34,355 bases of DNA from Burkholderiales bacterium. GTDB taxonomy: Bacteria; Vulcanimicrobiota; Xenobia; Xenobiales; Xenobiaceae. Position numbers and translations under genes: made by a program. Shown here one piece after another: positions 14,858 to 34,355 of the stretch; within the stretch, counting starts at the first letter, position 1, and each line of letters begins with the position of its first letter. The notes below the pieces were generated by a model, which saw only the letters and a program-made list of their open reading frames with translations, did not search any database and was not told the origin of the DNA. The DNA lies in contig JAAZKF010000038.1 in assembly GCA_012799975.1 (NCBI GenBank), forward strand, positions 1-34,355. Reading direction: 5' to 3'.

Positions 14858-15073
14858 CCTGAATCCGCTGCCTGGCGTGAGAACCGAGGCCATCGAGGCG
14901 GGTCCGGATGCCAGGAAGGCGTGCGTTCTGAGGAGCGGAGCGTAGTTGGAAACTACGTGAGCACCGCAGAGGTGCGCCTGACGACGCAGACGGGCCCTTC
15001 CCACCCGCACCCAGGTGTGGGTGGGACCTCAAGGGATCGACGGCCGAATGCCACGCCAGGCGGCGGATTCAGG
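14858..15073 (+). repeat. Dispersed 216-bp inverted-repeat element, copy 1
   Basis: The element begins CCTGAATCCGCTGCCTGGCG and ends with its near-perfect inverted complement (CGCCAGGCGGCGGATTCAGG). Between the ends are hairpins at GTAGTTGGAAACTAC, GCACCGCAGAGGTGC and CCCACCC...GGGTGGG. Two other copies in the window share most of the sequence in the same orientation. The bases flanking this copy are ATGGCA on both sides (14852-14857 and 15074-15079), a possible 6-bp target duplication. No transposase is encoded. It lies in the 630-nt region between the lipoprotein and pgpH starts. A non-autonomous mobile element or a mobile structured RNA are the main readings; see findings. Confidence 0.9.
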
Positions 15074-20395: not shown

Positions 20396-21289
20396 GTGGC
20401 GGGGGTGCCTGGAATTCTGAACATCCACCTTGACGGCGCCTCCCTGGGGAATCCAGGGCCCGCTGGGATCGGTCTAGTGCTGCGCCCAGAAGGGGGGCCG
20501 GCCCAGGAGATCGCCGAGGCGATCGGCCAGGCCACGAGCCACCAGGCGGACTATCGGGCCCTGTTACGCGCCCTGCACCTGGCCCGCGATCTCGGCCACA
20601 CCCGGGTGCACATCTACTCCGATAACCCCCTGATGATGCGACAGATGCGTGGCGAATCCCGCGTGCGCGATCCCCTGTCGCGGCCCCTCTTCCGAGAGGC
20701 CATGAGACTGACCCGCGAGCTCGACGTCCGCTTCAACAAGGTGACCCGCGAGGCCAACCGCCAGGCTGACCAACTGGCCCGCAGGGCAGCACGTGGCCAA
20801 ACTCCGCCTCCCCCCCCGATTCAGGAGCCCCCCCCCGACCAGCCGAAAGAAGGTCGACTTGAAGCGGTCCAGCGCTCTGCGGGTGGGGTCGTCTACAAGA
20901 AGGAGGGGAGAGCCCTGAAGGTCTGCCTGATCGCCAAACGCGGCGGGCTGGTCTGGGCCCTGCCCAAGGGCCGGGTCAACCCAGGCGAGACCTCCGAAGA
21001 GGCCGCGGTCCGAGAAATCCTGGAGGAGACAGGCCACCTGGCAGCCATCGCTGAGCAGATCGACCATATCAACTACGACTTCTACTGGAAGGAAAACCGG
21101 ACCCTGTACCACAAAGTGGTCGTCTTCTATCTGATGCCCCTGGTGCAGGAGGCGGTTGGACCTCGAGATGATGAAGCCGACGCCGTGGGCTGGTTCACCT
21201 TGGGGGAGGCCTGCCGCAAGCTGTCCTACCTCAACGAAAAGAAGGTCCTGCACCAGGCCAGACGGATCCTGCAAATGACCAGGGCCTGA
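20396..21289 (+). CDS. RNase H-like domain fused to a NUDIX hydrolase
   Basis: A 297-residue two-domain protein. Residues 1-134 resemble RNase HI: HLDGASLGNPGPAGIGLVL holds the first aspartate (D13), HQADYRALLRALHLA carries D52 where the family has glutamate (AEY), YSDNPL holds D76, and ANRQADQLA has the fourth acid. A Pro-rich linker (about 135-155) joins it to a NUDIX domain with the full box at 192-214 (GRVNPGETSEEAAVREILEETG). Possible roles are RNA/DNA hybrid cleavage plus nucleotide or RNA-cap-like hydrolysis; substrates cannot be predicted. The start is GTG 20396 or GTG 20405; the second fits the GGGAG at 20389-20393 slightly better. Confidence 0.82.
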   Translation: MAGVPGILNIHLDGASLGNPGPAGIGLVLRPEGGPAQEIAEAIGQATSHQADYRALLRALHLARDLGHTRVHIYSDNPLMMRQMRGESRVRDPLSRPLFREAMRLTRELDVRFNKVTREANRQADQLARRAARGQTPPPPPIQEPPPDQPKEGRLEAVQRSAGGVVYKKEGRALKVCLIAKRGGLVWALPKGRVNPGETSEEAAVREILEETGHLAAIAEQIDHINYDFYWKENRTLYHKVVVFYLMPLVQEAVGPRDDEADAVGWFTLGEACRKLSYLNEKKVLHQARRILQMTRA

Positions 21290-21439
21290 TCGCCCGGTCT
21301 TTTCCCTCTTCCCGATGACCACCCTCCTCGGCATGCCCAGGATGTCGATTACTGGAATCCCCATGATGTCTGGGGCTGCCAGAACGGGAAGGACCGCTCG
21401 GCCCCGGGCGGAAGACTGGTCCCTTTCCGGAGGTCATTG

Positions 21440-23104
21440 ATGCCTGAATCCACTGTCTGGCATGAGAACCGAGGCCGTCGAGGCGGGTCTGGATGCAAGG
21501 AAGGCGTGCCTCGAGGAGCGGAGCGTGGTTGGAAACTACGTGAGCACCGCAGAGATGCGCCTGACGACGCAGACGAGCCCTTCCCACCCGCACCCGGGTG
21601 TGGGTGGGACCTCAATGGAGCGGCGGTCGAATGCCACGCCAGGCGGCGGATTCAGGCGATACGCCAAGCTTTGCTGTTCATCGTCTTCCTGCTTGCGCTC
21701 GCCATGTTACCAGCAAGCGTGAAGGCAGAGCCGGGAGGGGTCTCGGGGGTCTGGTTGTCTCCCGACTGGATCCTGCCGGGAACGAGATCCTATACCGAAA
21801 ACGAGGTGCGCCGGGTGGCCCGCCAGACCCTGGAGAGCCTGGCAGCCGAGGGCATCAACACTGTCTTCCTGGAGACCTGGCTGCGCGGCTACTCGATCGC
21901 ACCTGGAATCCAGACCAGGAACTACCGCGCCACTATCCAGCCTTTCCGTCCCGGGATCGAGGGTCTGCCGGTCTACCGGCACCTGCGCTGGGACTACCGC
22001 GTGCTGGCGGACGAGGTTCAGGACCCCCTGCAGATCTTCATCGACGAAGCCCGCCCCCTGGGGATTGAGATCCACGCCTGGTGCCACGCCTTCTACTGGA
22101 AGATGGACAACACGTCGGTGATGCTCCCCTGGCATTCAGGACCGAGCCTCTGGAACGACCTGCTGGCCACCTGGCTGCGAGAGGAGGCCACCCGCCTGCA
22201 GGACTCGCCGGTCGCGGCCCCGGCTACCCTGACTCTCATGTCCGAAGCCGCGGAACTCTTCGATCACACCGACGAGCCTCGGGAGTTGGAGAAGATCCTG
22301 GCCCGGCACGGTGTCCCCCATAGAGGGAATCCCCTGGGCGCCCTGGTGCGTCAGGTCCTGCGCGCCGGAGCCCGCGAACCGGGATTCCTCCTGATCTCTT
22401 CGAGCGAGGACCCCTTCCCTGCCCCCCGCAACAAGCAACTGCGCCCCGTCTTCCTAAACCCCGAAAACCCCGAGGTGGCCCGTCGCCTGGAAGCCGCCCT
22501 GCTGAACCTGGCTGCCGGGCACCCGGGTCTGGCCGGTCTACACCTGGACCATATCCGCTTCCCGGTGGATGGCCAGGGCCTGCCCGAAGAGTTGGGGATC
22601 CAGAGCGGAACGTACAGCTACTACAACCCAGCCGACCCAGCCCAGATGGAACGCTATCAGCGCTGCCGGGAGATCATCGAGCGCCGTCTGACGGCCCTGA
22701 CGACGCTGGTCAACCGGATCCGGGAAGGACTCGATCGGCGGATCGCCCTCTCGGCAGCCGTCCTGCCCCTGTACTACCGGGAGCGGGACAACGGCCGGCG
22801 CCGTCTCTCCGGCTATGATTTCTCCTGCCAGGACTGGTATGCCTGGAAGGTGGATTTCGTGGTCCCGATGATGTACGACTTCAACCCCTATGTCATCCGC
22901 AGTATCCTGAGGGAATTCGCCGAGGACCAGGAGCGCCTGCATGGGCGCCGGACCATCGCCGTCTACCCGGGAATCAGCCACCTGCAACTGGCCCGCTCGG
23001 GAGCCCTGGCGGCGAGCGACTGGGTCTTCTTCGACCTGACCCTGGCCCGGGATTTGAAATTCGAAAGACAGCCTGTCGAAGACCTGGACTTCGAGCCGGA
23101 ATAA
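21440..23104 (+). CDS. GHL10-type secreted glycoside hydrolase, start region invaded by repeat copy 2
   Basis: A protein of the GHL10 (DUF187, family-10-like glycosyl hydrolase) group. The segments SGVWLSPDWILPG, EGINTVFLETWLRG, GLHLDHIRFP and VDFVVPMMYDFNPYVIR fit the TIM-barrel family. GGAGGT (21429-21434) stands five bases before ATG 21440, but the next 213-214 bases are repeat copy 2, read in frame without stops for 71 codons. A normal signal peptide (AIRQALLFIVFLLALAMLPASVKA) begins right after the repeat. The mature enzyme would act outside the cytoplasm on cell-wall or polysaccharide material. The 554-residue product now has about 71 foreign residues before the signal, which may impair export. 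The active-site acid cannot be assigned with confidence. Confidence 0.8.
   Translation: MPESTVWHENRGRRGGSGCKEGVPRGAERGWKLREHRRDAPDDADEPFPPAPGCGWDLNGAAVECHARRRIQAIRQALLFIVFLLALAMLPASVKAEPGGVSGVWLSPDWILPGTRSYTENEVRRVARQTLESLAAEGINTVFLETWLRGYSIAPGIQTRNYRATIQPFRPGIEGLPVYRHLRWDYRVLADEVQDPLQIFIDEARPLGIEIHAWCHAFYWKMDNTSVMLPWHSGPSLWNDLLATWLREEATRLQDSPVAAPATLTLMSEAAELFDHTDEPRELEKILARHGVPHRGNPLGALVRQVLRAGAREPGFLLISSSEDPFPAPRNKQLRPVFLNPENPEVARRLEAALLNLAAGHPGLAGLHLDHIRFPVDGQGLPEELGIQSGTYSYYNPADPAQMERYQRCREIIERRLTALTTLVNRIREGLDRRIALSAAVLPLYYRERDNGRRRLSGYDFSCQDWYAWKVDFVVPMMYDFNPYVIRSILREFAEDQERLHGRRTIAVYPGISHLQLARSGALAASDWVFFDLTLARDLKFERQPVEDLDFEPE
21443..21656 (+). repeat. Dispersed inverted-repeat element, copy 2 (214 bp, inside a gene)
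   Basis: Same element as copies 1 and 3, beginning CCTGAATCCACTGTCTGGCA and ending CGCCAGGCGGCGGATTCAGG. It is two bases shorter, the difference falling near base 21510. The left arm has diverged from the right arm, so the terminal stem here is less perfect. It sits immediately after the ATG of the GHL10 gene. No target duplication is visible. Confidence 0.9.
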
Positions 23105-31032: not shown

Positions 31033-31513
31033 GGGGGGCCGGTCACCGACACGTTTTGAACGGGACCCGGCGAGAGGCACCTGGTCAGCACGGCCGACAC
31101 CGCGTCGACCCGCCCATATTCCAGACCACGGTGACATATCCTGACACCGACAACCTTCACAATGAAGGGAATCCGTCCCGCATCCTGTTGACAATGCCGT
31201 CAACCGACTGCACCCGGCCTGAATCCGCCGCCTGGCGTGAGAACCGAGGCCATCGAGGCGGGTCTGGATGCCAGGAAGGCGTGCGTTCTGAGGAGCGGAG
31301 CGTAGTGGGAAACTACGTGAGCACAGCAGAGGTGCGCCTGACGACGCAGACGGGCCCCTCCCACCCACACCCTGGTGTGGGTGGGGTCTCAACGCCTCGA
31401 CGGCCGAATGCCGCGGTAGGCGGCGGATCCAGGCCCGAGGCCGCGACTCCTGACGTGCGCCTTCCCAGCGCACTGAATGCGGGTTGGATTGATCGTGAAG
31501 GGAGGAACCGCCG
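31033..31513 (+). other. 481-nt gap in the cas operon with repeat copy 3
   Basis: No gene is seen. Bases 31187-31204 form an inverted repeat GTTGAC-AATGCC-GTCAAC whose left half contains a perfect -35 hexamer TTGACA (31188-31193). No -10 lies 16-18 nt after it: repeat copy 3 starts at 31218, so the insertion may have separated promoter elements. Between 31434 and 31513 is an 80-nt stretch ending with GGGAGG, the ribosome site of cas4-cas1. Confidence 0.5.
31218..31433 (+). repeat. Dispersed 216-bp inverted-repeat element, copy 3
   Basis: Same element as copies 1 and 2. It starts CCTGAATCCGCCGCCTGGCG; its right end has diverged (GCGGTAGGCGGCGGATCCAGG region), so the terminal stem is interrupted. 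The 12-bp internal hairpin (CCCACCCACACC/GGTGTGGGTGGG) is perfect in this copy. It lies between cas8 and cas4-cas1, 80 nt ahead of the latter, in the same orientation as the operon. No clear target duplication is seen. Confidence 0.88.
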
Positions 31514-34225: not shown

Positions 34226-34355
34226 GTATCCACGCCAATCACGGCGTGGCCCCATTGAAGCATCCATCATCGTCCTGGACCAGCAGGCCGAGGCCCGTAT
34301 CCACGCCAATCACGGCGTGGCCCCATTGAAGCAACAACAACGAGAGGGGGGAGCC
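34226..34355 (+). CRISPR. CRISPR array, first two repeats (continues past window)
   Basis: Two identical 36-nt repeats stand at 34226-34261 and 34297-34332, separated by a 35-nt spacer (34262-34296). A second spacer (34333 on) is cut by the window edge. Each repeat starts GTATCCACGCC and ends CCCCATTGAAGC; the inner CCACGCC-AATCAC-GGCGTGG forms a 7-bp hairpin, and the last eight bases ATTGAAGC would be the crRNA 5' handle if cleavage follows the type I rule. Identity of the repeats and adjacency to the type I-G cas genes make the call firm; total array length is unknown. Confidence 0.95.

Follow-up and report, generated by a model that had tools for sequence, protein, structure and literature searches.

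The window, a stretch of 34,355 nt that is contig C127 in the genome of an uncultured bacterium (452 contigs, 3.65 Mb), carries a gene for a putative exported protein whose start codon and signal peptide are separated by a short repeat (Table 1). The match of the window protein to the GHL10 domain (Pfam PF02638) is weak (16.1 bits, below the cut-off of 27.9), and searches against NCBIfam and PDB sequences gave no match. Since two distant orthologues (L036 and L041) pass the GHL10 cut-off with 33.6 and 35.6 bits, the predicted product is best named an exported glycosyl-hydrolase-like protein. For comparison we used the genomes of three sister species of the same genus (G001, G002 and G003), in which the orthologues of the host gene are 81% (G001), 89% (G002) and 91% (G003) identical. 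Upstream of the gene, G001 and G002 have an ORF with QGYGPQG repeats (L033 and L034, before position 1500); in the window this ORF is mostly gone, with an RNase H-NUDIX gene in its place, and a short stretch before the host gene (21300-21400) is related to its end.

A first-pass annotation of the window had described GGAGGT, a 5-nt spacer and ATG at 21440-21442, with the repeat beginning at the next base and a stop-free frame through the repeat to the signal peptide, and we found this arrangement as described, within a 555-codon ORF. The same annotation proposed that the repeat had been inserted in frame after the start codon of a gene encoding an exported protein, and named beforehand a comparison with orthologues, which might start elsewhere, as a possible refutation. 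The repeat is absent from all three orthologues, each of which starts ATG-CGC after a similar ribosome-binding site (ggaggtcgttgATG-CGC in G003, gaggtcgtccATG-CGC in G002 and ggaggtcgtcgATG-CGC in G001). The same ATG is thus used without the element, and the proposal stands. Side by side, G003 reads ccggaggtcgttgATGCGCC and the window ccggaggtcattgATG-[element]-cgataCGCC.

The empty sites, with ATG directly followed by CGC, and the 5-bp target duplication give a net gain of 219 bp (21443-21661), or 73 codons, composed of a 214-bp element and one copy of the duplication. This revises the proposed geometry, in which an element of 213 bp (21443-21655) accounted for 71 codons. Removal of 213 bp would keep two foreign codons, GCG ATA, and the product deduced in that way, MAIRQ, owes the AI after its methionine to the last element base and the second duplication copy; the native N-terminus is M-RQALLFIVFLLALAMLPASVKA (MRQ). 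The two duplication copies flanking the repeat match at only 3/5 bases, a weak agreement attributable to the probable age of this copy.

Table 1. Features at the start of the host gene (positions in the window).
Feature	Positions	Strand	Remarks
Shine-Dalgarno sequence GGAGGT, ancestral	21429..21434	+	Sequence and spacing identical in element-free G003 and G001
Left target-duplication copy TGATG	21438..21442	+	Empty site ttgATGCGCC in G003; 5-bp rule
Ancestral start codon ATG, split from codon 2 by the insertion	21440..21442	+	Starts the orthologues in G001, G002 and G003
MITE copy 2, IS1380-type ends	21443..21656	+	214 bp
Left terminal inverted repeat, imperfect, 22 bp	21443..21464	+	
GTG, second-best possible in-frame start, within the element	21506..21508	+	Shine-Dalgarno pairing -6.9 kcal/mol
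Right terminal inverted repeat, imperfect, 22 bp	21635..21656	-	
Right target-duplication copy CGATA, decayed from TGATG	21657..21661	+	
Predicted native signal peptide after the start Met (RQALLFIVFLLALAMLPASVKA)	21662..21727	+	Orthologues MRRALLVVVFLLALSLLPLGVKA etc.; cleavage site by eye
Target motif TTGCTG	21671..21676	+	14 bp outward of the right end, family rule
Mature exported GHL10-like protein (putative) and stop codon	21728..23104	+	

The first-pass annotation had also called the repeat a multi-copy element, in line with at least 134 core matches in its own genome, compared to 8, 7 and 6 in the three sister species and 0 for a reversed-pattern control. Among 292 candidates, 40 full or partial copies were scored. 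Copy 2, with the ends CCTGAATCC...GGATTCAGG, contains no transposase gene within its 214 bp and has no family match; an Rfam search likewise gave no match, and the core was not found in viral contigs. Target duplications were counted in the 36 complete copies that have both flanks (33 from the own genome, 3 from the sister genomes), after flank alignment with anchored ends; they are 5 bp long, identical at 5/5 bases in 16 copies and at 4/5 in 8 more. The duplications of the IS1380 family have a length of 4-5 bp. In G003 and G001 the IS1380 transposase domain (PF13701) scores above cut-off; the elements that contain it, 2232 and about 2257 bp long (L094 1-2232 and L095 661-2917), have the ends CCTGAATCCGCC in common with the repeat, and the IS copy of G001 is flanked by a perfect 5-bp duplication, GGACC. 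By its 5-bp duplications and the ends it shares with these PF13701 elements, the repeat is, as judged from sequence, a miniature inverted-repeat element (MITE) of IS1380 type.

No complete IS1380 transposase was found in the own assembly, only fragments (G000 C29, C69, C60 and C338; L102, L104, L106 and L107), one of which matches the G001 enzyme at 96% identity over 67 residues, and the assembly may lack a recent full copy. A derivative of about 92 bp (L017 146-238) has the same ends and lacks the middle, with similar matches in G001-G003. The ends and flanks of this form give 44-49 matches per sister genome, indicating that the genus commonly carries other subfamilies. Two further copies lie in the window. 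The element tree places copy 1 (14858-15073), which has ATGGCA on either side, closest to copy 2 (support 0.97). Copy 3 (31218-31433), with a CCCGG/CCCGA duplication and a GTCAA target motif, sits inside a CRISPR-Cas locus recognized from Csb1 (PF09617, 24314-25579), the remaining genes being assigned by eye; a 37-bp sequence occurs twice, in identical form and 71 bp apart (34226-34333), and probably marks the start of a CRISPR array that the contig end truncates.

Insertions of the family are associated with TTG (best TTGAC) at offset 14, at times 13, reading outward from one element end. The motif is present in 51/146 flanks of the own genome and, counting either side, at 24 of the 36 complete insertions, copy 2 included (binomial p about 1e-41). 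The right flank of copy 2 reads cgata-cgccaagct-TTG, and its insertion point is explained by this rule. We also observed a TATAAT-like hexamer (at least 4/6) 16-18 bp after the target TTG in 14/56 cases, versus 19/775 for other TTGs in the flanks. Such promoter-like pairs number 4 at offset 13 and 10 at offset 14, where the mean per offset is 0.18; they face away from the element (for example in L017, L136, L140, L144, L010, L061, L094 and L095), and a similar pair was noted by eye next to the IS copies of G003 and G001. At L017, the target is the putative promoter of an apparent tRNA gene; the site is empty in G002 and G001, where the promoter is intact, and the promoter is thus older than the insertion. 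The majority of target TTGs, that of copy 2 among them, have no clear -10 hexamer, so that the TTG sequence may equally well be recognized directly. We are evenly divided on the proposal that the IS1380 lineage and its MITEs target the -35 hexamer, inserting about 14 bp upstream (around -50), in which case the start-codon insertion would have followed a TTG that occurs by chance in coding sequence.

The open frame through copy 2 is by itself unremarkable: about 14% is expected from composition, and the frame in question is open in 19/34 copies. It is already open in the consensus of the 214-bp subfamily, so read-through needed no repair. We rejected the idea that selection built the open frame, given this consensus and the 35-38% of random substitution placements that stay open, and also a restoration of the frame by a later 2-bp deletion, as the 214-bp form is a subfamily present at other sites. 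Changes within the insert amount to 17 nonsynonymous and 4 synonymous, compared to 13.5 and 6.5 expected without constraint, and the remaining gene has a dN/dS of 0.17-0.21 to the three relatives and no frameshifts, which together indicate an unconstrained insert in a gene that has been kept. Copy 2 is the most diverged of 34 copies and has the longest terminal branch (0.086), and thus probably is old, an age that is rough since some of its 21 differences to the subfamily consensus are common to copy 1. Some relaxation of selection on the window branch is possible, with nonsynonymous changes in 27/68 lineage-specific codon changes compared to 3/23 for G003 (p 0.02). Over all insertions, ORF-span statistics gave no excess in long ORFs, in a G+C-rich genome where genic and intergenic sequence are poorly separated.

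Initiation at ATG 21440 is favored since the ancestral Shine-Dalgarno sequence and ATG are intact, accessibility of the start region (0.56) is within the range of the relatives (0.24-0.59), and the second ATG created by the duplication has decayed to ATA. Read-through of the element from ATG 21440 with export kept is the most likely outcome, as we infer from these features. The predicted tail, which includes the peptide DAPDDADEPFPPAPGCGWDLNGAAVECHAR, leads into a hydrophobic core with a hydropathy peak of 3.28 at residue 78, directly preceded by the arginine-rich residues HARRRIQAIRQ. According to the positive-inside rule, positive residues before the core favor the normal Sec orientation, and this stretch would thus favor insertion with the tail inside.

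Translation might instead begin within or after the element, at GTG 21506 or TTG 21671, leaving the tail partly or wholly unmade and the signal peptide nearer the N-terminus. GTG 21506 has an AAGGA-type ribosome-binding site, and the insert codons are unconstrained, with an open frame surviving by chance in about 35-38%. We nevertheless regard an internal start as unlikely: ATG 21440 is the stronger site (-10.2 kcal/mol), ancestral and unchanged, the better-placed ATG of the right duplication was lost, and neither a promoter-like sequence nor a terminator was found in 21280-21780. TTG 21671, suggested as an alternative start in the first-pass annotation, has no usable site (-2.9 kcal/mol, at -18) and corresponds to the target motif. 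An end to export, or decay of the gene to a pseudogene, is less probable again. A 73-residue tail ahead of a signal peptide is unusual, and the window branch has relatively more nonsynonymous changes than G003, but a complete 481-codon frame, with 81-91% identity to the three relatives and dN/dS of about 0.2, has persisted despite the probable age of the copy.

We give little credence to a role acquired by the tail, for example in inner-membrane retention or in mRNA regulation through a hairpin. The + strand of the insert as RNA has a strong predicted fold (-113 kcal/mol, z -6.1), and frame and start are preserved; this fold, however, is shared by the palindromic family as a whole, and no purifying selection is seen on the insert codons. 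An assembly chimera at the repeat is the most improbable of these alternatives and can nearly be dismissed: many copies of the family stand at contig ends, showing that the MITE breaks assembly, but in each of the three relatives a single uninterrupted locus matches both flanks of copy 2, and this copy, as the most diverged of 34, is the easiest to assemble.

Our preferred explanation, read from sequence throughout, is that a non-autonomous MITE was mobilized by a transposase of the IS1380 family and landed across the start codon of the exported GHL10-like gene, at the place preferred by the MITE family, with TTG 14 bp outward of one end. With a subfamily whose reading frame is open here and a gain of 219 bp, a multiple of three, the gene would have acquired 73 codons in frame. 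The gene would have kept its own ribosome-binding site and ATG, from which ribosomes would still start and read through the element. The product would most likely be exported by Sec and cleaved normally, its tail staying on the cytoplasmic side; the tail would have no function of its own, the insertion being tolerated and nearly neutral. We consider this explanation, taken as a whole, probable.

Like MITEs in general, the element has no transposase gene, a high copy number, a short target duplication and terminal inverted repeats in common with a complete element, here one of IS1380 type, the family of ISEcp1 and IS1247. It differs in its preference for a TTG or -35-like sequence at a fixed distance. 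In the open-access literature we found no report of IS1380-derived MITEs of this kind or of an IS1380 preference for -35 boxes, an absence that is weak evidence, and nothing on promoter-guided transposon targeting; the targeting rule looks unreported. MITEs in frame within genes are known, among them Rickettsia palindromic elements, ERIC and Yersinia repeats (PMC10969869, PMC2229807). Rickettsia palindromic elements are likewise small palindromic mobile repeats found in frame in conserved, seemingly functional genes (PMC10969869, PMC2229807), but their sequence is unrelated, and the case here is a single one at the very start of a gene; the insert is only incidentally open, and a preference for coding regions is not apparent from the ORF spans, which separate genic from intergenic sequence poorly. 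In Yersinia YPO1552, also a putative exported protein, a 168-bp repeat is fused to the N-terminal region and forms part of the signal peptide (PMC2229807), whereas here the whole native signal peptide has been moved 73 codons inward. In-frame MITE fusions thus are known, and this layout is what is unusual.

The locus constitutes a natural experiment, in which one exported protein exists with and without a 73-codon extension before its signal peptide, with three empty-site controls, and which tests the length of N-terminal tail tolerated by Sec export. If the preference for TTG or a -35-like sequence holds, it would show how a MITE can rise above 100 copies, its insertions often falling just outside promoters, and a promoter-guided transposon, if the proposal is true, would be a new mode of target selection in bacteria.
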